Of a stretch of DNA of 64,000 nucleotides, positions 1,697-53,634 are shown one piece after another. The position numbers were made by a program, and so were the translations under genes. The notes under the pieces are model-generated. The model saw only the letters and a list, made by a program, of their open reading frames with translations. It ran no database searches and was not told the DNA's origin. Source of the stretch: an uncultured Prevotellaceae bacterium (GTDB lineage Bacteria; Bacteroidota; Bacteroidia; Bacteroidales; Muribaculaceae); NCBI GenBank assembly GCA_900318065.1, contig ONIY01000001.1, forward strand, positions 37,777 through 101,776, given 5' to 3'. The stretch's first letter is position 1. Each line of letters starts with the position of its first letter.

Positions 1697-1840
1697 CTTC
1701 CCTCTCCCCTCTCCCTTCTCCCCTCTCCCCTCTTTCCTCTCCCCTCTCCCCTCTACACTCTGTACCCTATACTCTATACTCTGTACTCTATACTCTGTAC
1801 TCTATACTCTATACTCTGTACTCTATACTCTCCACTCTGT
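1697..1840. repeat. Polypyrimidine 7-bp tandem repeat (CCCCTCT / TACTCTA families)
   Basis: The first half is a run of CCCCTCT-like heptamers and the second half of TACTCTA/TACTCTG heptamers. The phase of 7 bp is kept through nearly the whole tract, and one strand is almost purely C/T apart from regularly placed A and G. It is non-coding and lies between a terminator and a promoter. Confidence 0.9.
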
Positions 1841-1883
1841 AATCGTTTGCAACAAGTTGATTAGCACTTCGTTAGTGTGTCGA

Positions 1884-1916
1884 TTTTGTATATTGAAAAA
1901 TTATGCGTAACTTTGC
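1884..1916 (+). promoter_or_regulatory. Bacteroidetes-type promoter for the 3D-domain gene
   Basis: -33 box TTTTG (1884-1888) and -7 box TAACTTTGC (1908-1916) with a 19-bp spacer, 80 bp before the start codon. Confidence 0.75.
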
Positions 1917-1995
1917 AGCGCTTTTTGGGCGTTATAACGTTTCCTAAATTTAGGCAACCAGTCCTGAAGCATATCTATTAACCAAAACAATTTAT

Positions 1996-2376
1996 ATGCG
2001 TAAAGCTTTATTTTTATTGCTTTTGTTAATCAGTTCAATCGGTGCAAGTGGTCAAGTAACTGTGACAGCTACCAAGTATCACCCCGGCATGGGAGGCGCA
2101 GGTTGGGTAACCGCCAGCGGTTCGCGAATTGACAACAACAAGCTTAAGAACTATGAGATTAAATGGATTGCCCTGTCGCACGACATGTTCCAGAAACTGG
2201 GCGTGAAAATGGGCGACGAAGTTATCATTGAATGTGCCAACTCACTCATCAGTGGAGTGTGGAAAGTAATGGACAAGATGGGTCCCAGATTGCGCAACCG
2301 CATCGACATCCTTCTTCCCCGTGGCGACAAGATGAACTTCCATGCACCAATGAAAGTGCAAATCCGGAAGAGGTGA
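1996..2376 (+). CDS. Small secreted 3D / RlpA-like double-psi beta-barrel protein
   Basis: 126 aa with a Sec signal peptide (residues 1-20, ending SGQ). The mature part resembles the 3D/double-psi beta-barrel fold of RlpA and MltA-type wall-active proteins: a TATKYHPG...TASGSRID start, then three aspartates in MGDEV (D74), KVMDKM (D93) and NRIDIL (D104) in the spacing of a 3D domain. It is likely periplasmic or exported. Such domains usually sit in peptidoglycan-acting proteins, but here the domain is alone, so any enzyme activity is inference. Monocistronic, with its own promoter and a shared terminator. Confidence 0.7.
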   Translation: MRKALFLLLLLISSIGASGQVTVTATKYHPGMGGAGWVTASGSRIDNNKLKNYEIKWIALSHDMFQKLGVKMGDEVIIECANSLISGVWKVMDKMGPRLRNRIDILLPRGDKMNFHAPMKVQIRKR

Positions 2377-2400
2377 TAATAACTCTCTCACACACAATTA

Positions 2401-2437
2401 AAGAAGCTGCATTCCCATGAGGGATGCAGCTTCTTTT
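2401..2437. terminator. Bidirectional terminator between convergent genes
   Basis: The stem AAGAAGCTGCATTCCC / GGGATGCAGCTTCTT has one bulged base and a T run on the plus side. The A-rich left arm makes it usable from the minus strand as well. It lies between the convergent 3D-domain gene and pepD. Confidence 0.85.
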
Positions 2438-2461
2438 TTGTCGCTTAGCCAAAATGGTTGA

Positions 2462-3940
2462 TTACTTGCTCTCCTCGGCAAGGGCCTTGATGATGGCCTG
2501 CACTTGCTTCCATGCCTTGTCTACTGCTGGGATGTGGCAGCGCTCGGCTGGTGAGTGCACATCGCGCAGAGTGGGACCAAAGGAGATCATCTCCATGTCG
2601 GGACGTGCCTTGAGGAACAGACCACACTCGAGACCTGCGTGAATGGCTCTAACCTCGGGCTTAACGCCAAAGAGTTTCTCCCATTGCTCTTGAGCAACGG
2701 TGAGGAGGTGGCTGTCGGCGATGGGCTCCCATCCCTGGTATCCACCCTCGCTGATGATCTCGTTGGCTCCAGCAAGGCGGAAGATAGTCTCGCACTTGTG
2801 GGTGAGGTCATACTTGCCACTCTCGATAGAAGAGCGGTGGAACATCTCAACAACAATCTGGTTGCCCTCGCGCATCTTCACGCTGGCAAGGTTGGTCGAA
2901 GTCTCAACGAGTCCAGGAATCTCCATGCTCATGGCAGCGATGCCGTGAGGTGCAGCATAAACGGCATCAACAACGCGGCGTGCGGTGTCGGTGTCGATAA
3001 TGGTCTCGGGCACATCAACGCTGTTGCAAGTGATTTCCATCTTGGGCTCGGTGCGCTTGTACTCATTCTTAACATCGGCAATGAAGGTGTTGAGAACCAC
3101 GCTCAACTTCTCCTTATCCTCGGGCTTGATACCCACAACAACGGTAGCGGCATGCGCGATAGCGTTGTGCAGGTTACCAGCGTCGATGCATGCGAGCACA
3201 TAGTCCATCTGGTCGCCAATGTTCCAGAGCAGGCGGCTGCTGAGCTTGGTAGCGGTGGCATAGCCCAGGTGGATGTCGGCACCACTGTGACCGCCATGGA
3301 GGTGCTCAAACTTGATCTCGAAGTAAACGCGATCCTTGGGGGCAGCCTCAGGCTTGTAGTTGAACTTGAAGATGCTCACCAGACCACCGGCGCAGCCCAT
3401 AGTGATGACGCCATCTTCCTCCTCGTCGAGGTTGAGCAGATAGTCGCCCACGAGCATGTCGGCCTCAATATTGCTGGCACCAGTGAGTCCTGTCTCCTCG
3501 TCAACGGTAGCAAGCGCCTCGAGAGGTCCACACTGCAGCGAAGGCTCGATTACTGCTGCCAGTGCTATTGCCAGACCCATGCCATCGTCGGCACCAAGGG
3601 TGGTGTTGTTGGCGCGCACCCACTCGCCGTCGATAATGGTCTCGATGGGGTCGGTGTCGAAGTTATGGGTAGAACCGGGTCCTTTCTCGGCTACCATGTC
3701 CATGTGGCCTTGCAGCACAATGCCCTTGCAATTCTCATAGCCAGGAGCTGCTGGCCTGAAGATTGCCACGTTGCCAGTTTTGTCAACCTTGTATTCAAGA
3801 TTGTGCTTCTTGGCAAAATCAACGAGCCATGCGCGGATTTTGTCTAACTTGCCTTCATCATTGCCCGATGGACGGGGAACCTTGGTGATCTCTTCAAAGA
3901 TGGACCACACTGCCTGTGGATTCAAATCTTTAATTGTCAT
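2462..3940 (-). CDS. pepD: Aminoacyl-histidine dipeptidase (M20C, Xaa-His dipeptidase)
   Basis: Cytosolic zinc dipeptidase of 492 aa that cleaves Xaa-His and other dipeptides in peptide catabolism. M20 metal and catalytic residues are visible: GHMDMV (H79, D81), GADDGMG (D118/D119), the DEETG general base pair (E148/E149) and LNLDEEEDG (D172), followed by the lid domain with HLHGGHSGADI. Full length for M20C. It is monocistronic on the minus strand, and its end faces the bidirectional terminator. No clear -7 box was found upstream in the A/T-rich gap. Confidence 0.95.
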   Translation of the reverse strand: MTIKDLNPQAVWSIFEEITKVPRPSGNDEGKLDKIRAWLVDFAKKHNLEYKVDKTGNVAIFRPAAPGYENCKGIVLQGHMDMVAEKGPGSTHNFDTDPIETIIDGEWVRANNTTLGADDGMGLAIALAAVIEPSLQCGPLEALATVDEETGLTGASNIEADMLVGDYLLNLDEEEDGVITMGCAGGLVSIFKFNYKPEAAPKDRVYFEIKFEHLHGGHSGADIHLGYATATKLSSRLLWNIGDQMDYVLACIDAGNLHNAIAHAATVVVGIKPEDKEKLSVVLNTFIADVKNEYKRTEPKMEITCNSVDVPETIIDTDTARRVVDAVYAAPHGIAAMSMEIPGLVETSTNLASVKMREGNQIVVEMFHRSSIESGKYDLTHKCETIFRLAGANEIISEGGYQGWEPIADSHLLTVAQEQWEKLFGVKPEVRAIHAGLECGLFLKARPDMEMISFGPTLRDVHSPAERCHIPAVDKAWKQVQAIIKALAEESK

Positions 3941-4071
3941 AGTAAATTAATTTTTTAATAAAAATTATTAGTTAAAATAGATGTTCCAAAATAATTGTTA
4001 AATCAGGCTTTTTGCCACCGCTAAATTACAATTTTTTTTTAAATAATCGGCAATTTATCAGAAACGTTTTT

Positions 4072-4080
4072 TAAATTTGC
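4072..4080 (+). promoter_or_regulatory. -7 box upstream of the 56-aa membrane protein
   Basis: TAAATTTGC matches the Bacteroidetes -7 consensus and lies 22 bp before the GTG start; no clear -33 box. Confidence 0.55.
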
Positions 4081-4102
4081 ATGCTTTTTTAAGAATAACG
4101 TC

Positions 4103-4273
4103 GTGAAGATACTACTTTTGACACTGATTTTGGTGGGAATAGCCATCCTGCTGCTTGGAGTTAAAGTTTTCTTTGTCAAGGGCGGGCGGTTTCCTAACAC
4201 CCACATAGGCAGCAACCCCGAGATGAAGAAACGTGGCATCAAGTGTGTGCAGCACGATGAGTATTACAAATGA
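4103..4273 (+). CDS. Small single-pass membrane protein (56 aa)
   Basis: GTG start, 56 codons, TGA stop. Residues 1-21 are hydrophobic (VKILLLTLILVGIAILLLGV), followed by KVFFVKGGRFPNTHIGSN and a short polar tail with one Cys (IKCVQHDEYYK). From memory, similar short proteins with an FVKGG.FP.TH core occur in other Bacteroidales, so I regard this as a real conserved gene of unknown function. A -7 box sits just upstream, and the Skp-like lipoprotein starts 28 bp downstream, suggesting co-transcription. The start codon is a judgement: no ATG is available in frame at a sensible position. Confidence 0.7.
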   Translation: MKILLLTLILVGIAILLLGVKVFFVKGGRFPNTHIGSNPEMKKRGIKCVQHDEYYK

Positions 4274-4301
4274 CATAAAAACAAAAAACTATATAAACGA
4301 A

Positions 4302-4901
4302 ATGAACAATCTAAAGAACTTAATGAAACTGGCGATGGTGGCACTGGCCCTGACAATCACTATGGGCGCATGCAACCAGCAACAAGAGAGCAACAAGAAA
4401 GAGACAAAGGTAGAACCCGCCAAGGCAGGCAAGCACCTTGAAATCAGATATATCGACGAGGACTCGGTGCTCAAGAACTATAACCTTGCAAAGGACTTTG
4501 AGGAAATGACCACCCGCCTCCAGAACGAGTATGACCAGGCTCAGAAGAAATATGCCGACCAGCTGGGCAATTTCCAGAACACTGTGAACCAGAAGATGCA
4601 GAACAACCAGTATGCCAACGAGAACGCCTACAAGTCGGATGTTCAAAAGTATCAGCAGATGGAGCAGAACGCTCAAAACGAGATGGCAAAGTTGCAGCAG
4701 AACACTACCAACCAGTTGCAGCAGAGCCAAAAGCAGCTCAACGACTCGGTTCACAACTTCCTCGAGGATTACGCCAAGAAGAACAACTACGACATGATCC
4801 TCTTCAAGTCGGCTACTGGCTACATCAACCCCAGCCTCGAGGTTACCGACGAGGTGATCGAAGGCCTGAACAAGCGCTACACCAAAGTGGCAAAGAAATA
4901 A
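4302..4901 (+). CDS. OmpH/Skp-like periplasmic chaperone lipoprotein
   Basis: 199 aa. The lipoprotein signal has its lipobox at TMGAC (Cys24). The body is a long Gln/Asn/Lys-rich coiled coil (about residues 60-150) between two short conserved ends, IRYIDEDSVLKNYN and YDMILFKSATGYINPSLEVTDEVIEGLNKRY, which match the Skp/OmpH fold. Skp-family proteins hold unfolded outer-membrane proteins in the periplasm; the lipid anchor is a variation on soluble Skp. I chose the ATG at 4302 because it begins the signal peptide; an in-frame upstream start would only add residues from the previous gene's end. Confidence 0.85.
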   Translation: MNNLKNLMKLAMVALALTITMGACNQQQESNKKETKVEPAKAGKHLEIRYIDEDSVLKNYNLAKDFEEMTTRLQNEYDQAQKKYADQLGNFQNTVNQKMQNNQYANENAYKSDVQKYQQMEQNAQNEMAKLQQNTTNQLQQSQKQLNDSVHNFLEDYAKKNNYDMILFKSATGYINPSLEVTDEVIEGLNKRYTKVAKK

Positions 4902-4911
4902 TTCATGTTTC

Positions 4912-4947
4912 GTTGACGGTTGATGGTTGATAGTTTATGGTTTATGG
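4912..4947. repeat. 7-bp tandem repeat (TGATGGT / TTATGGT)
   Basis: About five heptamers, TGATGGT TGATAGT TTATGGT TTATGGA, directly after the Skp-like gene's stop and before its terminator. Confidence 0.75.
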
Positions 4948-5011
4948 AAGTCATGCGTTAAGCACCCATCTACATTAACCAGCAAACCACAAAGAAATAA
5001 TCATTTAGAGC

Positions 5012-5052
5012 AAAAATCACCATGGCTGCTTGCGGTCGTGGTGATTTTTTTC
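5012..5052 (+). terminator. Rho-independent terminator
   Basis: Perfect 11-bp stem AAAAATCACCA / TGGTGATTTTT followed by T residues; it closes the Skp-like transcription unit. Confidence 0.85.
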
Positions 5053-5084
5053 TTGGCAACACTGCATTTTTTCACTACCTTTGC
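5053..5084 (+). promoter_or_regulatory. Promoter of hflX
   Basis: -33 TTG (5053-5055) and -7 TACCTTTGC (5076-5084) with a 20-bp spacer; the start codon is 29 bp downstream. Confidence 0.7.
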
Positions 5085-5112
5085 ACTTTGAACGTTACAC
5101 ACATTAATATCT

Positions 5113-6357
5113 ATGGGATTACTTGACGACCAGAAACGACACAGCGTGAGCACCGTTGAAGAAGAACGTGCTGTGCTCGTGGGACTTATCACGCCACAGC
5201 AAAATGAATCGAAAGCCAAAGAATACCTCGACGAGCTCGACTTCCTCGCCGAGACCGCCGGCGCTGTGACCGTGAAGAAGTTCACGCAGAAGTGCGACGC
5301 TCCTAACCGCACCACCTTTGTGGGCAAAGGCAAGCTCGACGAGATAGCGCAATATATCGATGGCAACGACATCAATCTCGCCATCTTTGACGACGACCTG
5401 AGCCCCAAGCAGGTGTCAAACATCGAGAAAGTGCTGCGGGTGAAGGTGCTCGACCGCACGAGCCTCATCCTCGACATCTTTGCCAAGCGCGCCCAGACTG
5501 CCAATGCCAAGATGCAGGTTGAACTGGCACAGTATCAATACTTGCTGCCACGCCTCACTGGCATGTGGACCCACCTGGAGCGCCAGCGAGGCGGTATAGG
5601 AATGCGTGGCCCTGGTGAGGAGCAGATTGAGACCGACCGCCGCATCGTCAAGCAGAAAATCTCGCTCTTGAAGCAGAAACTTGCCAACTGGGACAAGCAG
5701 AAGACCATCCAGCGCAAGAACCGCGGCAAGCTCACTCGCGTGGCGCTGGTGGGTTATACCAACGTGGGCAAGTCTACCATCATGAACATGCTGAGCAAGA
5801 GCGACGTCTTTGCCGAGAACAAGCTCTTTGCCACCCTCGACACCACCGTGCGCAAGGTGGTGATCGACAACCTGCCCTTCCTCTTGACCGACACTGTGGG
5901 GTTCATCCGCAAGCTTCCCCACCACCTGGTGGAGTCGTTCAAGACCACGCTTGACGAGGTGCGCGACAGCGACCTGCTCATTCATGTGGTGGACATCTCG
6001 CACCCGCAGTTTGAGGAGCAAATCGAGGTGGTGAACCGCACGCTTCACGACGTGTGCGACGCCAGCAACAAGGAGATGATAATGGTGTTCAACAAGATAG
6101 ACCAGTTCAGCTACGTTGAGAAGGATGAAGACGACCTCACTCCTCGCCAGCGCGAGAACATCCCACTCGAGGAGCTGCAGGAGACCTGGATGTCGCGCAT
6201 GGTGGGTAACTGCGTGTTTATCAGCGCAAAGAAGCGCATCAACATCGACGCGCTCAAGCAGCTGCTCTATGAGAAAGCCAAGCTCATTCACACCCAGCGC
6301 TTCCCCTACAACGACTTCCTGTTCCAGCGCTATGATGACCTGGAGGAGAATTCTTGA
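5113..6357 (+). CDS. hflX: Ribosome-associated GTPase HflX
   Basis: 414-aa GTPase of the HflX family, which binds the 50S subunit and rescues or splits stalled ribosomes. The N-terminal HflX domain ends in the Gly-rich linker GMRGPGEEQIETDRR (about 163-177). The G domain shows G1 GYTNVGKS (214-221), G3 DTVG (260-263) followed by FIRKLPHHLVESF, G4 NKID (327-330) and a SAKK-type G5. Length and all motifs are normal. It has its own promoter and ends before a 9-bp repeat and a strong terminator. Confidence 0.96.
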   Translation: MGLLDDQKRHSVSTVEEERAVLVGLITPQQNESKAKEYLDELDFLAETAGAVTVKKFTQKCDAPNRTTFVGKGKLDEIAQYIDGNDINLAIFDDDLSPKQVSNIEKVLRVKVLDRTSLILDIFAKRAQTANAKMQVELAQYQYLLPRLTGMWTHLERQRGGIGMRGPGEEQIETDRRIVKQKISLLKQKLANWDKQKTIQRKNRGKLTRVALVGYTNVGKSTIMNMLSKSDVFAENKLFATLDTTVRKVVIDNLPFLLTDTVGFIRKLPHHLVESFKTTLDEVRDSDLLIHVVDISHPQFEEQIEVVNRTLHDVCDASNKEMIMVFNKIDQFSYVEKDEDDLTPRQRENIPLEELQETWMSRMVGNCVFISAKKRINIDALKQLLYEKAKLIHTQRFPYNDFLFQRYDDLEENS

Positions 6358-6384
6358 ATTCACAAATAGGAAGTAGGAAGAAAG

Positions 6385-6420
6385 CATTCTAGTTATTCTA
6401 GATATTCTAGATATTCTAGA
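6385..6420. repeat. 9-bp tandem repeat (ATATTCTAG)
   Basis: Four copies of (T/A)TATTCTAG-like nonamers (ATTCTAGTT, ATTCTAGAT, ATTCTAGAT, ATTCTAGAT) between the hflX stop and its terminator. Non-coding. Confidence 0.8.
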
Positions 6421-6444
6421 TTTCCACCATAGGACTAAAAAACA

Positions 6445-6481
6445 GGAGCCTTGCACCAGCTGGTGCAAGGCTCCGTTTTTT
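6445..6481. terminator. Terminator with perfect 30-bp palindrome
   Basis: Bases 6445-6474 form a perfect inverted repeat centred on CAGCTG, followed by T6. It lies between convergent hflX and the OmpA gene and could serve both. Confidence 0.88.
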
Positions 6482-6506
6482 CATCGATTAAGGAGTAAAA
6501 CGCGCC

Positions 6507-7742
6507 TTATTTAATCTTGTTCTGGATAGTGCAGATAGAAACGCGGTTCCACTCGGGCTCGCTAAACATCTCGCTGATGCCGTTGCCCTCGGCCTTGATG
6601 CGGCTTGACTTAATCTTGTACTTGCCGGTGAGCAGGTCATAAACGGCCTTAGCGCGGTTGTTGGCAAGACGGATGTTGAGATCCTCAGGACCGTCCTTCG
6701 AAGCATAACCCTTGATGATGCAAGTAGCCTCGGGATGGTTCTTCAGGAAGATAGCCACGCGCTCTACGTTAGGCATTTGAGCCTGGCTAACGACGCTCTT
6801 ACCAATCTCGAAGTAAACGTTGGTCTCGAGGTTCTCGATGCTGTTGTCAACAACATTAGTCTCGGTGATATACTCCACTTTGTTCTTGCGCTTGTTGCAC
6901 TCCTCAAGCTCTTGCTGGAGACGACGTGCGCGAGCATTGGCAGCGTCAACGTCGGCCTTAGCGTTGCTCAACTGGTTGCGCAGGTCATTAACCTGGGCGT
7001 TGATGGCGTCGAGGTCGCTCTGAGTGTAACGCATGGGGCACAGAGTCATGTAGTGCTCACCATTGTGGTTCTTGAAGTGATAGGTGAGACCAGCCTCAAT
7101 CTCAACTGTGGCGCAGTTGGCGTTGAACACTGTTGTGTGCTGAGTAGCGCCACGACCCATGTACCACACTACAGCAGGCTTGAGCGAAACGGTGAGAGCC
7201 TTAGACTCGCCCACGTTCCAGTTAAGGTTAAGACCAGCCTTGGTGTACCATGAGTTCTTGTCGGCAACCTCTACAGCAGTCTCGGCGGGAGCAATCACCT
7301 CGCCAGTCTTGTAGGCGTGCCACCATCCAGCGCCAGCCACAGCCTCGATGTCGAGAGTGCGAGGAGTGCCGGGATAACCGAGCAGCCAGTTAGTAAGGTT
7401 GATAGTACCAAAAGCACCCACGAGCTGATGGTCAACGATAGTCTTGCTGTGAGGTCCCCACACCGATGTGTGCTCGCCATAAGGCTTCTGCCACGACGAT
7501 GTGTTGAACGACCACTCACCTTCTACTCCCAGTCCCAGGACCGAAGTCACTTGCTTGCGGAGTTCGATACCAGCCACTGGACGTGCGCTCTTCCAGAAAG
7601 CGTAGTGCTGGAAAGGCGAAACGATACCGCCCTTGAGGGTCACTGAAAGATTGTCGGTAAACTTGCTACCTTGAACGGTAACCTGTGCCGATGCTGCGCT
7701 CAAAGTCATTGCAGCAACAGCAAGCAATAAAATCTTTTTCAT
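6507..7742 (-). CDS. OmpA-family outer-membrane protein with coiled-coil linker
   Basis: 411 aa. The signal peptide is MKKILLLAVAAMTLSAASAQ; the start was set there rather than at an upstream in-frame codon because it gives a perfect signal. An N-terminal beta-barrel of about 230 residues is followed by a heptad-rich coiled coil (YTQSDLDAINAQVNDLRNQL...) and a C-terminal OmpA/MotB domain that should bind peptidoglycan (FEIGKSVVS, KGYASKDGPEDLNIRLANNRA, NRVSI). It has the same architecture as the protein at 28135-29409, so the two are paralogues. It has its own promoter and a terminator at the end. Likely an abundant envelope-tethering protein. Confidence 0.9.
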   Translation of the reverse strand: MKKILLLAVAAMTLSAASAQVTVQGSKFTDNLSVTLKGGIVSPFQHYAFWKSARPVAGIELRKQVTSVLGLGVEGEWSFNTSSWQKPYGEHTSVWGPHSKTIVDHQLVGAFGTINLTNWLLGYPGTPRTLDIEAVAGAGWWHAYKTGEVIAPAETAVEVADKNSWYTKAGLNLNWNVGESKALTVSLKPAVVWYMGRGATQHTTVFNANCATVEIEAGLTYHFKNHNGEHYMTLCPMRYTQSDLDAINAQVNDLRNQLSNAKADVDAANARARRLQQELEECNKRKNKVEYITETNVVDNSIENLETNVYFEIGKSVVSQAQMPNVERVAIFLKNHPEATCIIKGYASKDGPEDLNIRLANNRAKAVYDLLTGKYKIKSSRIKAEGNGISEMFSEPEWNRVSICTIQNKIK

Positions 7743-7796
7743 ACTAAACAATTTTTTAAAACATATACTCTGAAAAAAAATTTTCAAAACGAAAGT

Positions 7797-12137: not shown

Positions 12138-13601
12138 TCAAATGAGCCCCATCGAGTGGAAAAGATAGGCAAAGAGATATCCCGACACGCTCGCCACAAC
12201 AGTGTGAACCATGCCTGGCATCATAAATGAGTGGTTGAGCAGATACTTGCCAATGACTGTGGTTCCGGTGCGGTCGAAGTTCACAGTAGCAATATCTGAT
12301 GGATAGTTGGGAATGAAGAAATAGCCATAGACCGAGGGGAACACTCCCAGCAATATCCATCCGTCAATGCCCAGTTTGTAGGCCAGCGGGAGCATGGCAA
12401 CAACCACTGCTCCCTGCGAGTTGACGAGCACCGAAACGAGGAAGAACGCAAAGGCTATCGACCATGGATACTGCTCTACCATGCCCGAGAGTATGGACTG
12501 GATATCGTCGAGATAGTTGGCAAAATAAGTGTCGGCAAGCCAGGCGATGCCATAGATTGCCACAACAGCTACCATACCGCTTTGCCACACGGGACCCGAC
12601 ACGGCTTTCTTGGGCGACGCCTTGCAGAAGATTATCATCAGCGCCGCTGCGGTAATCATCACAATCTGAATCACGAGGTTCATCTTCAATGGACTTTCAA
12701 CTTTCTCGGTGACGCCTGCCACATGTTGCCCAATCTTTGCCAGCTGGTCGGCGGTAACTGTCACACGAGAGCCAATGAGCTCGACAGAGGGAGCATCTTT
12801 AAGCGCCTTGACAGTGTCGTAGGCAGGAAGCAAGTCTTGGAAAATAGCAAAGAACACAATCACAAGCAGTGCTCCAAAGAAAATGAACACAGCACGCTTG
12901 CTCTCGGGAGCGATTTTCTTGTCAAGAGTGGTGGCAGTGCCGCCATAGATGTACTCGCGTTGAGCGGGATCGGCAAGTTTCTTCTGGAACTCGGGATCCT
13001 TGTCAAGGTCCTTGCCACGACGATAGGACGCTACCGATGCCAGGATGATGCCCAGCAAGCAAGCAGGGAAGGTGACCATGAGCACCTGAGGAATGCTGAT
13101 GGAGTAGCCATTGGCTCCCGAGATGGTGATGAATGCTACCACTGCTGCCGCGATGGGCGAGCAAGTGATACCAATCTGCGAGGCAATGCTGGCGATTCCA
13201 CAAGGACGCTCGGGACGGATGCCCTTCTTGATTGCGATGTCGCAAATGATGGGCATCAGTGTGTAGACCACATGTCCAGTGCCCACTAGCACAGTAAGGA
13301 AGAATGTGCACAATGGAGCGAGAAAGGTGATGCGGGCTGGATGCTTGCGCAAGAGCCTCTCAGCCAGCTGAATGAGCCAGTCCATGCCTCCCGAGGCCTG
13401 CATGATGCCGGCACAAGTGACAGCTGCAATGATGATGTAGATGACATCGGTGGGCGGTGTGCCCGGTTTCATACCAAAGCCAAACACGAGAATGGCTAAT
13501 CCAATTCCCGAAATGGCTCCCAATGCTAGGCTTCCGTATCTTGAGCCCAGCCACAACGCTGCAAGAACAATGCAGAGTTGCAAAATCATTAGTAGTGACA
13601 T
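12138..13601 (-). CDS. dcuB: Anaerobic C4-dicarboxylate transporter, DcuA/DcuB family
   Basis: 487-aa inner-membrane antiporter exchanging fumarate, aspartate or malate for succinate, consistent with fumarate respiration in an anaerobe. Many hydrophobic helices, with Dcu motifs such as PPTDVIYIIIAAVTCAGIMQASGG, GTGHVVYT, IKKGIRPERP, RGKDLDKDPEF and FDRTGTTVIGKYLLNHSFMMPG. It carries an insert of about 45 residues (AYDTVKALKDAPSVEL...) relative to the E. coli proteins, probably periplasmic. It lies downstream of a porin gene on the same strand, with the gap filled by 7-bp repeats that reach to within a few bases of the start codon. DcuA versus DcuB cannot be separated reliably. Confidence 0.92.
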   Translation of the reverse strand: MSLLMILQLCIVLAALWLGSRYGSLALGAISGIGLAILVFGFGMKPGTPPTDVIYIIIAAVTCAGIMQASGGMDWLIQLAERLLRKHPARITFLAPLCTFFLTVLVGTGHVVYTLMPIICDIAIKKGIRPERPCGIASIASQIGITCSPIAAAVVAFITISGANGYSISIPQVLMVTFPACLLGIILASVASYRRGKDLDKDPEFQKKLADPAQREYIYGGTATTLDKKIAPESKRAVFIFFGALLVIVFFAIFQDLLPAYDTVKALKDAPSVELIGSRVTVTADQLAKIGQHVAGVTEKVESPLKMNLVIQIVMITAAALMIIFCKASPKKAVSGPVWQSGMVAVVAIYGIAWLADTYFANYLDDIQSILSGMVEQYPWSIAFAFFLVSVLVNSQGAVVVAMLPLAYKLGIDGWILLGVFPSVYGYFFIPNYPSDIATVNFDRTGTTVIGKYLLNHSFMMPGMVHTVVASVSGYLFAYLFHSMGLI

Positions 13602-13603
13602 GT

Positions 13604-13707
13604 ATTTTAAGTTTTAAGTGTGAAGTTTTAAGTGTTAAGTGGCGCCTGCGGCGCTTGAAATGTGGAACGTGGAACGCGGAATGTAGAACGTGGAAAGTCT
13701 TGAGTGT
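13604..13707. repeat. Composite 7-bp repeat element, copy 1
   Basis: In plus-strand order: TTTTAAG/TGTTAAG heptamers (13604-13640), a hairpin GCGCC TGC GGCGC (13642-13654), then GTGGAAC-type heptamers (about 13660-13697). The 7-bp register runs through the hairpin. It fills the porin-dcuB gap. Two other copies with the same order lie at 48979-49103 and 53524-53634 in the opposite orientation. Confidence 0.88.
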
Positions 13708-15126: not shown

Positions 15127-16107
15127 ATGAGAATTACAGGAAGCATTATAGCATTAGCAATAATTGCCAGCGCAATTTCAAGCGCAATGGCTGCCACAAC
15201 CGATAAAGTGAACCTGGAGTGGCAGCAATGCGTGCTGGCGGCAGTTGACTCATTCCCACACAACGGCGGCTACTACACCGGTGCCAAGCCTAACGACACA
15301 TTCAAGAAAACAGCATGGAAGGGACTGCACCAGGCCTACAAGATGACGCTTGCCGACTCTCGCCCAGTGCTCGACCTGCAACTGGCACAACCCTCGTTTT
15401 GCTCCAGCGCAACCTATTGCGCTCTCATCAAGGCGCTCCTGATGTGGGACAAAGACCACAAAATCTCTCGCGAGGCTTGGCTGGCGATGAAACCCTTTGT
15501 GGGAATCGTCGACAACATGAACCCTCAAGGATACTACCAGAGCGACGGAGAGGGATTCTGGGGACGCATGAACGGCAACGGCCCTGCCATCGCAGTGCTC
15601 ATTCACGAGCTCAAAGCTGGCTACAGCTTCACTGCCTATCGTGGCGCCAAGACAGCGGCGTGCAAGGAGAGTGCCGATGAGCGTTACCTCACCGACGACG
15701 AGTGGCGCAACCTCCCCATCTGGCAACAGGCCAAACCTGGCGACTTCATGAAGATATTCTGGAACCGCGACGACGATAGCGGTGCCATCATTGGCGACAA
15801 CGGTGTGAAAGGCGACCTGCAGGAACACGGCCACAGCGTCATCTTCATGGGTATTGACAGTGAGGGATTTGTCACCTACTGGAGCAGTAACGGCCCTGGA
15901 GAGAAGCCTGCCGAGATGGGCTACAGCATGGGGCGCTGCGACAAGACCCGCATCCAGCGAGTGGTGTTCACCCGCATCACCAATCCCGAGCGCTTCGACA
16001 ACGTAAAGAAAATGCCTCCCAAGCACACCAACCAATACATCTACGACCTTAACGGTAAGAAACACAGCTCCACCCGCGAACTCATGAAGCACACAGGGAT
16101 TAAGTAG
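15127..16107 (+). CDS. Secreted protein with papain-like (NlpC/P60 or CHAP-like) Cys-His-Asn triad
   Basis: 326 aa from the ATG at 15127, which opens a clear signal peptide cleaved near AMAATT (residue 22-24). No family name comes to mind with certainty. The visible pattern is QPSFCSSATY (Cys92), a PGDFMKIFWN stretch, EHGHSVIFMG (His236) and YWSSNG (Asn255). This is the order and spacing of NlpC/P60 and CHAP amidases: Cys at a helix start, His in a strand, then a polar residue. A cell-wall or bacteriocin-like amidase in the periplasm or outside the cell is therefore plausible. Monocistronic, with its own -7 box. Confidence 0.62.
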   Translation: MRITGSIIALAIIASAISSAMAATTDKVNLEWQQCVLAAVDSFPHNGGYYTGAKPNDTFKKTAWKGLHQAYKMTLADSRPVLDLQLAQPSFCSSATYCALIKALLMWDKDHKISREAWLAMKPFVGIVDNMNPQGYYQSDGEGFWGRMNGNGPAIAVLIHELKAGYSFTAYRGAKTAACKESADERYLTDDEWRNLPIWQQAKPGDFMKIFWNRDDDSGAIIGDNGVKGDLQEHGHSVIFMGIDSEGFVTYWSSNGPGEKPAEMGYSMGRCDKTRIQRVVFTRITNPERFDNVKKMPPKHTNQYIYDLNGKKHSSTRELMKHTGIK

Positions 16108-16170
16108 GTGAGAGGGAAGAGGTGAGAGGGAAGAGGAAAGAGGTGAGAGAAGAAAATGAAGAGGTGAGAA
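16106..16170. repeat. Purine 7-bp tandem repeat (AGGTGAG / AGGGAAG)
   Basis: Heptamers AGGTGAG AGGGAAG AGGTGAG AGGGAAG AGGAAAG AGGTGAG and decayed copies, starting at the stop codon of the previous gene. The strand composition is opposite to the tract at 1697-1840. Confidence 0.85.
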
Positions 16171-40163: not shown

Positions 40164-40231
40164 GTTGTTAAGTGTTAAGTTTTAAGTGTTAAGTTTTAAG
40201 TGCTGATTTCCAAGTTTTGAGTGATGAGTTT
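40164..40231. repeat. 7-bp tandem repeat (TTAAGTG / TTTAAGT) between GT4 and GH57 genes
   Basis: Heptamers GTTGTTA AGTGTTA AGTTTTA AGTGTTA AGTTTTA AGTGCTG and decayed copies. The repeat begins 9 bp before the GH57 start codon inside the operon. Same TTAAGTG family as the composite at 13604. Confidence 0.87.
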
Positions 40232-48895: not shown

Positions 48896-48897
48896 GA

Positions 48898-49103
48898 TGT
48901 CACAGTTGTCAGTTGTCAGTTCTCAGTTATCCGGGGCTTCCGGGGCTTCCAGGTTCTCCGGGTTTTCCGGGCCGTGTTCCCTTAAATGCCACGTTCCACC
49001 TTCCACGTTCCTCGTTCCACCTTCCAAGTTTCACCTTCCACCTTCCACGTTCCTCGTTCCACCTTCCACGTTCCACGCGCCGCAGGCGCAACTTAACACT
49101 TCT
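48898..49103. repeat. Composite 7/9-bp repeat element, copy 2 (minus orientation), with GTTGTCA and nonamer tracts
   Basis: From left: GTTGTCA heptamers (48904-48928); a 9-bp tract GGGGCTTCC x2 then AGGTTCTCC, GGGTTTTCC (48933-48969); a long run of TTCCACC/TTCCACG/TTCCTCG heptamers (about 48989-49076); the hairpin GCGCC GCA GGCGC (49077-49089); then ACTTAACACTT (49091-49101). On the minus strand the order is TTAAGTG, hairpin, GTGGAAC, as in copy 1. The last bases contain the stop codon of rlmD. Confidence 0.88.
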
Positions 49104-50502
49104 TTTGCAGCAGTGCCACATTTTCCACATGGTGGGTGTGTGGGAACATGTCCACTGGCTGGACTGCCTCGACGCGGTATTTCTTGTCGAGCAAAGCTAT
49201 GTCGCGTGCCTGAGTGGCGGGGTTGCAGCTCACGTAGACAATGCGCTCGGGCTCGGCGTTAAGGATAACCTTCACCACGTCCTCATGCATGCCAGCGCGA
49301 GGCGGGTCAACGATCATCACATCGGGGATGCCGTGCTGAGCCACAAACTCTCCCGTGAGCACATCTTTCATGTCGCCGGCAAAGAACTTGGTGTTGTCGA
49401 TGCCGTTGACGCGGGAGTTGAGCTTGGCGTCCTCAATAGCCTCGGGGACATACTCAATGCCTATCACCTCACGCGCCTGCCGCGACACGAAATTGGCTAT
49501 CGTGCCAGTGCCGGTGTAGAGGTCATAGACGAGCTCGTTGCCAGTGAGCCCGGCGAAGTTGCGGGCAACTTTGTAGAGTTCGTAGGCCTGCTCGCTGTTG
49601 GTTTGGTAGAACGACTTGGGTCCCACGCGGAACCTCAGTCCTTCCATCTCCTCCTCGATGTAGTCGCGACCGCTATAGAGCACAAACTCCTGGTCACCAA
49701 GCGAATCGTTGACCTTGAGGTTGACCACATACATGAGCGAGGTAATCTGCGGGAATTGCTCACGCAGAGCACCCATCACGTCGTCGATGGCCTCGCGGTT
49801 GTCCTCGCCAAAGACCACCACGAGCATCAGTTCGCCAGTGCTGGCGGTGCGCACCATTATCATGCGCATAAAGCCCACGTTGTTGCGTATGTCGTAGAAG
49901 GTGTAGCCACGCTGCTGGGTGTAGTCGCGCAAGAAGAGGCGGATGCGGTTGCTGATGTCGTCCTGAAGCCAGCATTTCTCAATGTTGAGCACCTTGTCAA
50001 AGCCACCAGGGATGTGGAACCCCACGGCGTTGCGGTTGGGGAACTCTACCCCACTCTGCATCTGCTCGGTGGTGAGCCAGCACTTGTTGGAGAAGGTGAA
50101 CTCGAGCTTGTTGCGGTAGAAGGTGGTTTTCTTCGACCCCAGGATGGGAGAAATCTCGGGCAGAGGCACCTTAGCGATGCGCTCCAGGGCGTCGACCACT
50201 TGCTGCTGCTTGCAGCGAAGCTGGTAGTCATAGGGCAGATGCTGCCACTTGCAGCCGCCACACACGCCAAAGTGCTCGCACTTGGGCTCCACACGCAGCG
50301 GACTGGGCTTGGTGAGCTCGTCAATCACCCCCTCGCAATAGCTGTGCTTCTTGCGCGTGATCTTCACCCGAGCAATATCGCCTGGCGCTCCATAGGGGAT
50401 GAACACCACCAGGTCGTTCCAGCGACCCAGGCTCTTGCCCTCGGCTGCCACTCCTGTTATCTCAAAGTCCTCAAGCAGAGGCAAATTTTTCTTCTTTCCC
50501 AC
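49093..50502 (-). CDS. rlmD: 23S rRNA (uracil-C5)-methyltransferase RlmD-type
   Basis: 469 aa of the TrmA/RlmC/RlmD class, methylating uracil C5 in 23S rRNA with S-adenosylmethionine. N-terminal TRAM domain (about 10-75); [4Fe-4S] cysteines in CEHFGVCGGCKWQHLPYDYQ; SAM fold with VYDLYTGTGTIANFVS; catalytic Cys in VYVSCNPATQARD and the base residue following. RlmD, rather than the tRNA enzyme, is suggested by the iron-sulfur cysteines. Its stop codon (49093-49095) lies inside an AAGTGTTAAGT repeat unit. Confidence 0.93.
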   Translation of the reverse strand: MGKKKNLPLLEDFEITGVAAEGKSLGRWNDLVVFIPYGAPGDIARVKITRKKHSYCEGVIDELTKPSPLRVEPKCEHFGVCGGCKWQHLPYDYQLRCKQQQVVDALERIAKVPLPEISPILGSKKTTFYRNKLEFTFSNKCWLTTEQMQSGVEFPNRNAVGFHIPGGFDKVLNIEKCWLQDDISNRIRLFLRDYTQQRGYTFYDIRNNVGFMRMIMVRTASTGELMLVVVFGEDNREAIDDVMGALREQFPQITSLMYVVNLKVNDSLGDQEFVLYSGRDYIEEEMEGLRFRVGPKSFYQTNSEQAYELYKVARNFAGLTGNELVYDLYTGTGTIANFVSRQAREVIGIEYVPEAIEDAKLNSRVNGIDNTKFFAGDMKDVLTGEFVAQHGIPDVMIVDPPRAGMHEDVVKVILNAEPERIVYVSCNPATQARDIALLDKKYRVEAVQPVDMFPHTHHVENVALLQKKC

Positions 50503-50840
50503 AGGTCAATAAAATAGATTGTATTAATATTCGGTGCAAATTTACGAGTTTTTTTCCAAGTAGAAGGGCTATTCAGGGATTATTTATCGAGGTAAGTGGC
50601 TTGACACGCAAGCCAAATGCCCCCAAATGGACCAAAACGGATTTTTTGAACAAAACCCAGGCAAAACCACAATCTTAACACATCTTAACAAATGGGGGGG
50701 GTAAATTGAAAAAATGTTTATAAATTTGCAACCGCGACACAAAATGAATATAAATCATTAACTTTGTGACATTCTTATAACCCAATCCATTCATTAGGAT
50801 TTAGGTCAAACGAAGTGCCACTGCTTAAAACAATATTATT
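50503..50840. other. Divergent intergenic stretch rlmD / lipoprotein
   Basis: About 340 bp without a gene. It contains a minus-strand -7 box TAAATTTGC (50536-50544) for rlmD, a run of eight G near 50694, a plus-strand -7 box (50721-50729) and a 29-nt leader shared with another gene (50817-50845). Confidence 0.75.
50721..50729 (+). promoter_or_regulatory. -7 box of the 50841 lipoprotein gene
   Basis: TAAATTTGC preceded by TA, 112 bp before the start codon; no clear -33 box. Confidence 0.55.
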
Positions 50841-50845
50841 ATGAA
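50817..50845 (+). repeat. Shared leader A, copy 1
   Basis: 29 nt ending in ATGAA, beginning GCCACTGCTTAAAAC, identical to 52324-52352. It contains the start codon of the lipoprotein gene at 50841. Confidence 0.9.
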
Positions 50846-51938
50846 GACAAGACTTTTTCTACTATTAGCGTTATCGCTGGTTCTTTTCTCCTGCGAAGAC
50901 AAAAACGACGAACCGTGGAGTCCCCAGACCCAAGACGTGAAAATTGTGGCTCTCTCGGGCAGCACAATCTACTCAATGAACACTGCCGATGGTCAGCTCA
51001 AGACCACCTCAATAGGCGACAGCTATGGCACATTGAAGCATCTGTTCCTGCACAATGGCGAGATGATGCTTTTCAGCAAGGCGAGCGACGGCTACAGGAT
51101 GATGAAATTTGACGGAGACAATATCACCAGCAACAATATTGTCACTCTATTGAATGATTACCTTGGAGACTCCTGGTGGGTAAATGTTACCAGCTCAGGC
51201 AACAACTACTTCTATGCCTGCAGCAACAGAGAGAAGTATGTCATCCTTGACGAGAATGGCAACTCAAGGGAATATAACTATGCGCTTGACAACAGTCACC
51301 CTTATTATAGCTTGGCTACAGTTAACGGCAATGGTAATTTTTACCAGGCCTATATATATTTTCAATCATCAACCCCCGAGGACGACTACTGGGTTGTTAA
51401 GAAAAATGGCCAAGAGATTTATCAGGTGAGTGGTATAAAAGTGGAACCTATTCACACTAACATTAACGCAATTGGCGACAATGTGTATCTTCTTGGCTCA
51501 AACTACGATGACAAAGGGGTATATGCCATGAACTCCAATGCCGTTGTCGATGATCATTTCACCGTCATTTCTTGTGCATGCGTCATTAATGGACAGTTGT
51601 GCCTGGGTGGTTACAAAACCGACGAGCACAAGGTAAATAGGGCAACCATGAAGGTGGGCGACAAATATTACGACCTTACCGATGAGCTTGGCTGGTATGA
51701 ATACAAAGATGCCGAGACAGGTGCTGGCAACAACCATTCATCCTGTGTCGAAAGCTTCATGGTGGAGAACAATGAAATATATGCTCGGGTGAGGAAATAC
51801 TCTCAAGTCAATCCATATAATTCTGGAGGATATGACTATTTTAATGCCTCGGGCGACGCCATTTTCCGTAACACACACAAGGTCATGGACCTGGGCGATA
51901 AGCTGATTCGCTCTTGCGTTATAATCCCACAGAAATAG
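50841..51938 (+). CDS. Lipoprotein of unknown function, probable beta-propeller
   Basis: 365 aa. The lipobox LVLFSC puts the lipidated Cys at 18. The rest is rich in short strands and repeated turns (YSMNTADGQLKTT, GEMMLFSKASDGYRMMKFDGD, NVYLLGSNYDDKGVYAMNSN, GQLCLGGYKTDEHKVN), suggesting a six- or seven-bladed beta-propeller on the outer membrane surface or its inner face. I do not recognise a family. The leader before the start is shared with the beta-barrel gene at 52348. Confidence 0.75.
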   Translation: MKTRLFLLLALSLVLFSCEDKNDEPWSPQTQDVKIVALSGSTIYSMNTADGQLKTTSIGDSYGTLKHLFLHNGEMMLFSKASDGYRMMKFDGDNITSNNIVTLLNDYLGDSWWVNVTSSGNNYFYACSNREKYVILDENGNSREYNYALDNSHPYYSLATVNGNGNFYQAYIYFQSSTPEDDYWVVKKNGQEIYQVSGIKVEPIHTNINAIGDNVYLLGSNYDDKGVYAMNSNAVVDDHFTVISCACVINGQLCLGGYKTDEHKVNRATMKVGDKYYDLTDELGWYEYKDAETGAGNNHSSCVESFMVENNEIYARVRKYSQVNPYNSGGYDYFNASGDAIFRNTHKVMDLGDKLIRSCVIIPQK

Positions 51939-52347
51939 CAAACTAATAAGTGAGAGTTCGCAAAAGTCAAGGGTACCGCAACTGCAGCTGATACACAGCA
52001 ACTTATTTTCGTCGAACTCACGTTATTTTAGCGCTTTAGCGCCCAGATTTTAAAACAAACAATTTTAGAGCCAAAGGCTCCCTAATTTTCATGTGCGCCA
52101 GCACATGGCAAAAGAGTATTTAACGCAAACGCTGTGCCCCCAACAATTGCCTCACCGATCCTCCATCACCGATTCCCTATCCCTACGCCGCAGGCGGTGT
52201 CCCTACACCCACGCTGGGATAATCTCGCAAAGTTGCCACTCCGTGGTCGCAAAGCCTCGCAAGTTCGGCAAGTTTTCTTTTATAAAAAGGTAAATTTTTA
52301 AATTAGTGGCGTTGATGTTGGTCGCCACTGCTTAAAACAATATTATT
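51939..52347. other. Intergenic mosaic, part 1: hairpins and 7-bp repeats
   Basis: Non-coding. Contains a chain of small inverted repeats, GCGC TTTA GCGC (52031-52042), GAGCC AAA GGCTC (52068-52080), CATGTGC GCCA GCACATG (52090-52107); a heptad run of TCACCGA/TCCCTAC type (about 52150-52215) around the hairpin CGCC GCA GGCG (52186-52196); the module CGCAAAG-CCAC-GTGG-CGCAAAG (52224-52258); and a hairpin AGTGGCG / CGCCACT (52305-52329) next to leader A. Confidence 0.8.
52224..52258. repeat. CGCAAAG / CCAC-GTGG module, copy 1
   Basis: 35 bp in which CGCAAAG direct repeats flank a CCAC-TCC-GTGG inverted repeat; near-identical to 53328-53362 (only a TCC versus TTC loop difference). Confidence 0.85.
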
Positions 52348-52352
52348 ATGAA
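52324..52352 (+). repeat. Shared leader A, copy 2
   Basis: Identical 29 nt to 50817-50845, containing the start of the beta-barrel gene at 52348. The first bases pair with AGTGGCG at 52305 to form a hairpin. Confidence 0.9.
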
Positions 52353-52965
52353 AAAAATAACTATCACACTAATGTGCTTGCTGTTGACTGCTGGTGCTGC
52401 GATGGCGCAGAAGAAATTCACTTATGGCCCAAAAGTGGGCGTGGACTTGACTAATTTCTGGGGGAAAGACCTACCACATGGTATGCAGTTTAATTATCAA
52501 GTAGGTGCATTTTTGGAGTATTATTTCACCAATAAGTTTTCTATTGCTCCTGAAATAGTATTTGCTGCTCAGGGTGGAAAAATAGATATGACTGATTATC
52601 TTGACACACCAGTTTATATTAACAGTTCAGCCGACATGAGTTTTCATTTCAACTATATCAATTTGCCTATAATGCTGAGGTTTTATGCTATTCCTAAATT
52701 GAGCATCGACTTTGGTCCACAAATTGGATTTAATGTTTACAGCAAAGCAACAGCTAAAGCAAAAGTCAATGGCAGAACTGAGTCTTATACTGATGATTTT
52801 GATGGAGTGCGAAGTGTAGATGTAGGACTTGGGTTAGGTGCTACTTACAACATCACCAATAACGTTTTTGTACAAGGTCGTTACACAATGGGCTTGACAA
52901 AAGTGTTTGAAGCTGGTGATGTTTATAATGGCAATATACAGCTTGCCATCGGATACCGTTTCTAA
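52348..52965 (+). CDS. PorT/OMP_b-brl_2-type outer-membrane beta-barrel
   Basis: 205 aa with signal peptide MKKITITLMCLLLTAGAAMAQ. About eight amphipathic strands (KFTYGPKVGVDLTNFWG, QVGAFLEYYFTNKFSIAPEIVF, FNYINLPIMLRFYA, SIDFGPQIGFNVY, ...VFVQGRYTMGLTKVF, NIQLAIGYRF) with a terminal aromatic residue, as in the small Bacteroidetes porin-like barrel family. No enzyme motif. Base composition is more A/T-rich than the first 50 kb. Confidence 0.87.
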   Translation: MKKITITLMCLLLTAGAAMAQKKFTYGPKVGVDLTNFWGKDLPHGMQFNYQVGAFLEYYFTNKFSIAPEIVFAAQGGKIDMTDYLDTPVYINSSADMSFHFNYINLPIMLRFYAIPKLSIDFGPQIGFNVYSKATAKAKVNGRTESYTDDFDGVRSVDVGLGLGATYNITNNVFVQGRYTMGLTKVFEAGDVYNGNIQLAIGYRF

Positions 52966-53190
52966 TATTCTGTTCAACTGGCGTAAGCCAGCTTTTCGAC
53001 ACCGATAGGTGCAGCTTTGTGAGAGAATTGTTCCCTCACCGCCGTTCCACCTTCCACGTTCCACGTGCCGAAGAATCTTTTCTTGTTTTTCTAATGTTGT
53101 TCAGGGCAAACCTTTCCTTTACCTTTGTGCACATGAGCGCGTACATCATAAAATACAAAGGACAAAGAGGGAACGAAGGACAAAGTACAT

Positions 53191-53305
53191 GTCAACTGAG
53201 TCAACTGAGTCAGGCGAATTCTTCTCTCACCGCCGTTCCACGTTCCACGTTTCACCTTCCACCTGTTGTGAGTCAGGTGAGTCAAGTGAGTCAGGCGAGT
53301 CAAGA
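53191..53305. repeat. 9-bp tandem repeats GTCAACTGA / GTCAGGTGA family
   Basis: Two short arrays of nonamers (53191-53217 and 53270-53305) separated by a GTTCCAC heptamer run. Both read (A/G)GTCA(A/G)(C/G)(T/C)GAG-like units. Confidence 0.8.
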
Positions 53306-53327
53306 GGAAGCACCTACGCAACGATAC

Positions 53328-53362
53328 TCTCGCAAAGTTGCCACTTCGTGGTCGCAAAGCCT
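53328..53362. repeat. CGCAAAG / CCAC-GTGG module, copy 2
   Basis: Second copy of the module at 52224-52258; a further hairpin CCTGC TGTC GCAGG (53360-53373) follows at once. Confidence 0.85.
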
Positions 53363-53523
53363 GCTGTCGCAGGATAGTTTAAAATATTCCGAGCTTGCGA
53401 GGCTTTGTGACATCGATAGATGCAACTTTGTGAGAGGATTATTTTCCTCACTAGCTGAATTGTGCATTATGAATTGTGCATTGATTAAGGGTGCAGCTTT
53501 GTGAGATTAATGTTTCCTCACCG

Positions 53524-53634
53524 CCGTTCCACGTTTCACGTGCCACGTGCCCCGCGCCGAAGGCGCTACTTAACACTTAACATTTCACACTTTACACTTA
53601 AAATCGTTCCACCTTTCACCTTCCACCTGTTGCT
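53524..53634. repeat. Composite 7-bp repeat element, copy 3 (minus orientation)
   Basis: GTTCCAC/GTTTCAC/GTGCCAC heptamers, the hairpin GCGCC GAA GGCGC (53554-53566), then ACTTAAC/ATTTCAC/ACTTTAC heptamers and a second GTTCCAC run. The register stays near 7 bp throughout. Confidence 0.87.

Follow-up and report, generated by a model that had tools for sequence, protein, structure and literature searches.

To our knowledge, heptamer repeats of bacteria have been known for decades and have been left without an explanation; the heptanucleotide short tandem repeats (STRRs) of filamentous cyanobacteria were reportedly described by Mazel in 1990. Here we analyse a stretch of 64 kb, called the window, from contig ONIY01000001.1 (C27 in our numbering) of the uncultured Prevotellaceae bacterium GCA_900318065.1, a member of the Bacteroidales, the order to which Paludibacter also belongs. 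The gaps between its genes carry tandem arrays with units of 7 bp, and we find that these arrays have a strand polarity relative to gene edges. This polarity is their main feature and had been missed in an earlier reading of the window (the original prediction).

Among the closest described systems are the GGGNATC heptamers of two Xanthomonas genomes and one Nostoc genome, for which a polarity rule has been published (Rehm et al., 2015, PMC4692102). They are mostly intergenic, with the G-rich strand being sense within 50 bp of a stop codon and antisense upstream of an open reading frame (ORF); some overlap stop codons, arrays occur in facing pairs, and four units are preferred (PMC4692102). 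The arrays described here share with them 7-bp units with fixed and free positions, the intergenic location, the outward G-rich strand, the stop overlaps, the facing pairs and the preference for four units. GGGNATC, however, is a single G-tract family and is discussed for its quadruplex potential (PMC4692102), whereas our genome has many families, many of them without G-tracts and several to a gap, with rapid turnover between the two species, more distant ones, that we compared; the GGGNATC unit fits one of about eight families here and not the others.

A second system is that of the TAACTGA repeats of Beggiatoaceae, Cyanobacteria and five Bacteroidetes including Paludibacter (MacGregor, 2015, PMC4679880). 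The original prediction knew of no Bacteroidales counterpart; this published one has in TCAGTNN, the TAACTGA type, a main family here. As in Beggiatoaceae, the same heptamer (TCAGTTA on the opposite strand) stands forward just before start codons, which equals outward TCAGTTA in our terms, although the sections of PMC4679880 compared do not phrase it so; unlike there, further heptamer families and positions after stop codons obey the same rule. The likeness to cyanobacterial heptamer repeats that the original prediction had drawn is apt; both these and the long simple sequence repeats (Mrazek, 2007, as cited in PMC4679880) are dispersed heptamer arrays, sporadic over phyla. What is new here is the polarity across many families in one genome, the rule itself being already published for GGGNATC. 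The literature on heptamer repeats, consulted mostly without subscription papers, yielded no account of other heptamers following the rule, or of multi-family genomes.

Heptamer arrays between genes

The genome comprises 2.985 Mb in 97 contigs, of which 1.10 Mb was analysed. About 302 kb of this (20 contig starts) was picked irrespective of repeats and is called the unselected part, while the remainder was partly picked through matches to TTCCAC. Genes were called with a simple script that places some starts wrongly (in the window, 13523 instead of 13601). The 217 kb of gap DNA held 237 lag-7 arrays; shuffled sequence held 3 and the 853 kb of coding DNA 9. In this partly repeat-chosen sample this corresponds to 1.09 arrays per kb of gaps and 0.011 per kb of genes. 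One of the 237 is a run of N, leaving 236 in the later count. The 7-bp period is thus nearly confined to gaps, as originally stated. Other lags are rarer in the gaps, with 36 arrays at lag 8, 21 at lag 9, 11 at lag 10 and 2 to 9 per lag at lags 4–6 and 11–13, where shuffles gave 0 to 3 per lag. Arrays of four units are commonest (79), followed by three (43) and five (37), the detector missing short arrays.

In the first 420 kb analysed, a portion chosen by repeats, the lag-7 autocorrelation of gaps was 0.312 compared to 0.268 in dinucleotide shuffles (z 33), with harmonics at lags 14, 21 and 28 (z 27, 26 and 15), and coding DNA was without a lag-7 peak (0.244). Excess periodicity over shuffled DNA had been set beforehand as the point on which the original prediction should stand or fall; it is present, and the prediction is therefore not refuted. 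The lag-9 excess is weaker (z 14) and in part residual coding signal, and 9-bp arrays are a minor companion of the 7-bp arrays. The unselected part held 35 lag-7, 8 lag-8 and 4 lag-9 arrays in 59.8 kb of gaps; lag-7 arrays occurred there in 22 of 179 gaps and took up 2.4% of the gap bases.

Strand polarity at gene edges

Polarity was defined as the direction of the strand richer in G relative to the nearest gene edge, whether start or stop. Arrays with |G-C|/(G+C) below 0.34 were dropped from most of the polarity counts, a filter that kept 269 of the 379 arrays in the set combining this genome with its genus-mate, the rumen metagenome-assembled genome RUG378 (Prevotellaceae). In our genome 169 arrays have their G-rich strand pointing (5′ to 3′) outward from the nearest gene and 38 have it pointing toward that gene, with out:in ratios of 80:10 where the nearest edge is a start and 89:28 where it is a stop (Fisher p 0.019); the unselected subset gave 28:2. 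Pairs of arrays within a gap read "+ then −" 67 times and "− then +" 4 times, where permutation within gaps gives 35.5 of each. Of 53 gaps, 50 are monotone, a number that none of 2000 permutations reached (mean 33, maximum 42). In gaps without arrays, no GC skew is seen from one end to the other. RUG378 gave 45:17 out:in over starts and stops, 24:14 at stops alone and 11:0 for pairs within a gap.

The polarity is sharpest right at the gene edge: in the combined set the out:in counts are 73:7 at 0–10 bp, 62:9 at 11–50 bp, 54:29 at 51–150 bp and 25:10 beyond 150 bp. When this set is split by gap type and side, each of the eight classes leans outward, six of them at p <0.05. A recount with longest-ATG starts and lag 7 only gave 157:23 outward, and 98:8 within 60 bp, so a changed start-codon rule leaves the polarity intact. 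Transcription-strand bias pooled over entire codirectional gaps was mostly about even, the exception being TAACTGA with 20:5 sense (p 0.0041; 22:3 by a cruder grouping); the polarity signal emerges, unlike in this pooled count, once the nearest gene edge is the reference.

Within 60 bp of a gene, outward polarity is found in our genome for TCAGTTA (28:1), GGTTTAT (22:2), GTGGAAC (19:3), GGGATCG (13:2), AAAGGAC (9:1) and TTAAGTG (26:9), which puts no fewer than six families of a single genome under the rule. G-tracts are dispensable: the out:in counts are 50:8 for arrays with none, 55:4 with GG and 19:4 with GGG. This bears on the proposal, made for GGGNATC heptamers, that such repeats are G-quadruplex elements. 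The GGGGATC family does fit GGGNATC, with polarity as in Xanthomonas and Nostoc, and the four-unit preference would suit a quadruplex, but polarity is equally strong without G-tracts as with GGG. Polarity and unit structure across unrelated words, independent of G-tracts, speak against a causal role of quadruplexes, and we consider this explanation very improbable.

The rule is also seen in relatives. Twelve Bacteroidales loci from a pattern scan, one of them in RUG378, gave 29:2 outward; with extra stretches RGIG7584 gave 14:2 and bin.71 13:0, eight of these loci being common to the twelve-locus set. In ten other Bacteroidota of the same class, TCAGT arrays outside ORFs were 8:2 outward, one array inside an ORF having been dropped. 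Congeners are mostly array-poor, with 8 lag-7 arrays in 42.5 kb of gaps, coming from 5 of the 20 genus or family genomes sampled.

Arrays can abut genes. In the combined set, 14.8% of the 379 arrays have an edge within 2 bp of a gene edge, compared to 4.2% with random placement; 16 cross a predicted stop and 2 a start, and some begin at the stop codon itself. In our genome TAG stops are enriched where an array begins within 3 bp (17/47 vs 112/748, p 0.00067). Trimming of protein ends by arrays was considered and rejected, as unaligned tails of at least 3 residues occur in 31% of 26 array-abutting proteins and 39% of 173 others.

Anchors, fillers and the origin of the arrays

The dominant families are TTCCACN, TTAAGTG, GGTTTAT, TCAGTNN (which includes TAACTGA), GGGGATC, CTCTNNN, AAAGGAC and ATTGTGC. 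Units were aligned by the consensus of each array, and arrays with more than 2 mismatches to every family reference were dropped, also in the family polarity counts. In the clearest families (TTCCAC+N, TCAGT+NN, CTCT+NNN, ATAAAC+N) a fixed anchor of 4–6 bases and 1–3 variable filler bases add up to seven. For TCAGTNN (230 units) the anchor is 96–99% conserved and the two filler positions 60% and 40% (χ2 499, 6 df), whereas in the BOGUAY genome one-base variants of TAACTGA are rarely or never repeated (PMC4679880). The contrast is 90–97% against 52–59% in CTCTNNN (χ2 255), is likewise strong in ATAAACN (χ2 151) and TTCCACN (140), and is intermediate in GGATCGG (93) and TTAAGTG (59). Families with strong anchors and fillers would not be expected from plain slippage. 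The tracts of the window had been described as differing in sequence; in fact a few anchor families recur genome-wide and in RUG378, and the window tracts may, as a tentative view, be parts of one system of intergenic heptamer arrays rather than independent microsatellites.

The original suggestion that some process generates or retains such repeats is upheld, while spreading by that process is doubtful: for most families, unit order is common to loci about as often as in shuffles, GGACAAA at three units being the exception (60 shared, shuffled maximum 52). Copying of whole arrays between loci was rejected on the same ground, unit strings being mostly no commoner across loci than in shuffles.

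Array content turns over between related species while anchors persist. In 94 gaps orthologous between our genome and RUG378 (median protein identity 76%), arrays are present in our genome only in 8, in RUG378 only in 8, in both in 8 and in neither in 70. The gaps with arrays only in our genome have a median of 179 bp against 75.5 in RUG378, and those with arrays only in RUG378 a median of 206.5 against 63.5 in our genome, so array presence lengthens a gap by about 100 bp relative to its empty ortholog. Sharing of arrays by both species exceeds chance (Fisher p 0.00073), with families that mostly differ.

We tentatively suggest, as the leading one of several possible readings, that the arrays arise locally by repeated one-directional extension of 3′-ends in gaps, in steps of seven. 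Each step would add seven bases to a 3′ DNA end within a gap; the anchor, needed for re-annealing every time, would hence be invariable, while the filler would be loosely copied or added. Only ends with a G-rich growing strand would be extended, and the events in gaps would mainly be those surviving selection, from which it would follow that the two edges of a gap grow toward each other as facing telomere-like blocks, later joined. The anchor and filler structure, the fixed step, the local independence of arrays, the addition at gene edges and the opposite polarity of the two gap sides fit such repeated extension. As expected for telomere-like sequence, the 5′ to 3′ direction of the G-rich strand is toward the presumed end on both sides of the gap, with no actual DNA end seen.

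About as likely as end extension is replication slippage in steps of about seven bases, with purifying selection clearing arrays from genes and, near starts, clearing the G-rich orientation because ATG, GTG and TTG all need a G. Slippage favouring such steps is an idea of Mrazek (2007) as cited in PMC4679880, which also occurs without his name in PMC4692102, and heptamers were the most abundant long simple repeats in most genomes of that 2007 survey (as cited in PMC4679880). Lag 7 also dominates in 77 foreign loci, selected by (GTTCCAC)3 without a control word, with 83 further arrays compared to 17 at lag 8 and 15 at lag 6. The 14- and 21-bp higher-order repeats within arrays are usual slippage products, and the stricter bias at starts than at stops agrees with such selection. 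Slippage would, however, homogenise all seven positions alike, whereas most families have varying fillers and fixed anchors, and a handful of anchors dominate; avoidance of start codons, moreover, leaves unexplained the bias at stops in both genomes (89:28 and 24:14) and the 67:4 order within gaps.

Alternatively, the anchors could be selected sites for RNA- or DNA-binding proteins at transcript ends or before starts, for instance translational leaders. Within 60 bp of start codons TAACTGA arrays are on the sense strand in 20:0 cases, as in Beggiatoaceae, for which a translational role has been proposed (PMC4679880), and for this family before starts a selected leader element is plausible. Conserved anchors with free fillers, and the above-chance sharing of arrays in orthologous gaps, would also suit selected elements. 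As a general explanation we find it rather unlikely, as arrays are often absent in one of the two species and mostly of different families where both have them, the same polarity is found at both kinds of gene edge and in convergent as well as divergent gaps, and one rule is common to many different anchors. The RbpB binding motif was considered as well; the published passages on it that were compared gave no sign of a link to the arrays.

The arrays are also combined into modules. Module order was counted in the combined set, with families lacking a clear G excess oriented by a reference word. Reading outward, TTAAGTG precedes a dyad (GCGCCTGCGGCGC and variants) in 16:2 cases, the dyad precedes GTGGAAC in 21:8 and GGGATCG in 9:1, TCAGTNN precedes AGTAGTTG in 12:0 and GGTTTAT precedes GGAAGACAGTG in 11:1. 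ATAAACN arrays often have a non-repeat leader, CACTGTCTTCC, for example in contigs C46 (6501–6764), C15 (11119–11351) and C43 (13098–13702), and variants of it are present in RUG378. Intergenic dyads of the GCGCC..GGCGC kind number 58, many having a TTAAGTG array on one side and a GTGGAAC or GGGGATC array on the other, and the bases preceding the GCGCCTGCGGCGC dyad are mostly of TTAAGT type. In this TTAAGT context the dyad (TTAAGTNGCGCCTGCGGCGC) has 39 copies in our genome, 1 in RUG378 and 0 in the other 59 congeners searched. In RUG378 a palindrome, GGACAAGGCGTGCCTTGTCC, often GTAG-tagged, comes after TTAAGTG arrays and in one gap stands directly before a GGGGATC array.

Such arrangements could suggest composite mobile elements of the type of repetitive extragenic palindromes (REPs) and bacterial interspersed mosaic elements (BIMEs), carrying the arrays, moved by a Y1 (RAYT-like) transposase and inserted in one orientation. 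REPs with GTAG or CGTC tags have been described (Di Nocera et al., 2013, PMC3733652), and like these short, many-copy intergenic palindromes, the GTAGGGACA..TGTCC palindromes here carry a GTAG end; they resemble GTAG-tagged REPs, have 51 matches in our genome and 20 in RUG378 in the DNA analysed, and some adjoin heptamer arrays. Our genome has six Y1 transposase loci, and the dyads and the near-restriction of TTAAGTNGCGCCTGCGGCGC to this genome also speak for mobility. Unlike tagged REPs, however, the GCGCCTGCGGCGC dyad is without a matching transposase gene in the stretches examined and is often at the joints of heptamer arrays: it was not seen beside three of the six Y1 genes, in stretches covering both flanks of one gene and a single flank of the two others, where other palindromes or repeats lie, and these stretches gave no sign of a link between the dyad and Y1 transposases. 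Many arrays, furthermore, lack a dyad, terminal inverted repeats are not found (of 74 gaps with facing outermost arrays, only 6 have one family at both ends), and unit strings are mostly not common to loci beyond shuffles. We therefore hold mobile elements to be improbable as the source; mobile palindromes may have placed the dyads, which leaves the arrays unexplained. At one Y1 locus, a stretch of C15 (L168, its positions 870–2040), the RAYT-like gene has a copy of a long palindrome of its own (CCCCTTCGGGG type) on either side, which makes a BIME-like unit without relation to the heptamers, and in a stretch of C36 (L169, its positions 1284–1390) three near-identical copies of GGGGACGGTTCCTTTTTTC lie upstream of another Y1 transposase gene.

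Returning to end extension, several observations weigh against it, and its direct tests came out neutral or negative. Unit purity shows no trend across arrays with distance from the gene (p 0.52 for 51 arrays). Ku had no match in our genome, RUG378 or the 4 other genomes searched, and classical end joining thus looks absent. Reverse transcriptase (PF00078) counts do not track array richness among 11 genomes, and no break, DNA end or enzyme was seen. The preferred module order and the shared non-repeat leaders imply some copying between gaps, and alternation of units with a 14-bp period in three families points to ordinary tandem duplication within arrays. AAAGGAC and ATTGTGC have little contrast between anchor and filler (χ2 23 and 24, in our genome), GTGCATT arrays disobey the polarity rule (3:6 within 60 bp) and GAGAGGT reaches only 7:3. 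Finally, the polarity outside the Bacteroidales is unclear: loci there gave 29:17 out:in, and a further count gave 6:2 in Flavobacteriales, 4:4 in Zipacnadum, 3:3 in Aminicenantes, 0:2 in Gemmatimonadaceae, 1:2 in the Moranbacteria type and 2:3 in viral contigs (3 stretches only); these counts come from crude gene calls and few arrays, some loci overlapping each other or the earlier set.

The wider version, that in several phyla an unrecognised activity adds degenerate heptamer steps to 3′-ends in gaps, with the G-rich strand growing and telomere-like facing blocks as the result, appears unlikely to us. Four copies of TCAGTNN occur in 38 of 295 other genomes and a reversed control word in 21 of 295; because the control word also forms arrays, words common across phyla were not used as evidence of transfer. 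The joints of dyad and array described here have a counterpart in a second phylum: in three stretches of the Acidobacteriota genome PW8, GTTCCAC arrays adjoin a CCGCTGGTCTTCGACCAGCGG-like dyad.

Features of the window and their meaning

The features of the window are collected in Table 1. Tandem Repeats Finder (TRF) places arrays at or beside nearly every tract for which a strict 7-bp period had been claimed, and at the four 9-bp tracts (6386, 48930, 53191, 53268); at the TCACCGA tract at 52150 neither TRF nor our separate array detector found one. By script, 10 of the 16 window arrays are labelled out and 6 in; two of the latter have G = C, two are outward with the start at 13601, and two (1696–1838, 53268–53302) are truly contrary. 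That start belongs to a DcuA/DcuB-like gene (12138–13601, minus strand), which probably begins at 13601; with the shorter call, its Pfam match starts at position 20 of the profile. Rfam had no match in the window at the gathering threshold.

Table 1. Arrays and dyads in the window, with TRF spans of 7-bp period
Position	Strand	Feature	Context	Called by	TRF 7-bp span
1696..1838	-	CTCT+NNN array (CTCTCCC, CTCTATA, CTCTGTA), about 20 units	Between terminator-like hairpin and next gene; breaks polarity rule by nearest edge; orthologous RUG378 gap has no array	TRF, detector	1696-1754, 1751-1831
4912..4947	+	GTTGATG/GTTTATG array	10 bp past stop, G-rich strand outward	TRF, detector	4912-4947
6386..6421	.	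9-bp array, palindromic core TCTAGA	G = C	TRF, detector	
13605..13641	+	TTAAGTG/TTAAGTT array	3 bp from ATG 13601 of minus-strand 487-aa ORF, G-rich strand outward; labelled inward with scripted start 13523	TRF, detector	13605-13640
13642..13654	+	13-bp dyad GCGCCTGCGGCGC	Between two heptamer arrays		
13656..13698	+	GTGGAAC array	Polarity as TTAAGTG array at 13605	TRF, detector	13662-13695
16106..16169	+	AGAGGTG/AGAGGGA array, 14-/21-bp higher order	Begins beside stop of upstream gene; matching RUG378 gap of zero length by scripted gene calls	TRF, detector	16101-16149 (14- and 21-bp rows extend to 16169)
40166..40201	+	TTAAGTG/TTAAGTT array	11 bp from start, G-rich strand outward; matching RUG378 gap has no array	TRF, detector	40166-40202
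48903..48931	+	CAGTTGT (TCAGTNN) array	G = C; TCAGT reads outward from start of minus-strand gene at left	TRF, detector	48903-48928
48930..48971	.	9-bp TCCGGGNNN array		TRF, detector	
48989..49077	-	TTCCACN array, 12.7 units, 21-bp higher order	G-rich strand outward from stop at right	TRF, detector	48989-49077
49077..49089	-	Dyad GCGCCGCAGGCGC	Adjoins TTCCACN array, then AACTTA		
53045..53069	-	TTCCACN array		TRF, detector	53043-53066
53191..53212	.	9-bp GTCAACTGA array		TRF, detector	
53234..53264	-	TTCCACN array		TRF, detector	53234-53262
53268..53302	+	9-bp GTGAGTCAG array	Contrary to polarity rule	TRF, detector	
53525..53558	-	TTCCACN/GTGCCAC array		TRF, detector	53525-53551
53554..53566	-	Dyad GCGCCGAAGGCGC			
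53568..53599	-	ACTTAAC array	Past dyad GCGCCGAAGGCGC (reverse of TTAAGTG - dyad - GTGGAAC)	TRF, detector	53568-53601
53607..53628	-	TTCCACC array		TRF	53607-53628

Any mechanism for these arrays must account jointly for the strand, the gene edge and the number seven, which makes for a countable test. The outward polarity is a hint of some gap-writing process, as yet unexplained, of which one repeat type in Xanthomonas and Nostoc had given an earlier glimpse. If such dedicated writing of DNA is true, then gap DNA would be reshaped by it in some Prevotellaceae and perhaps elsewhere, and if selection is responsible, the arrays would mark gene ends in a manner still to be understood.

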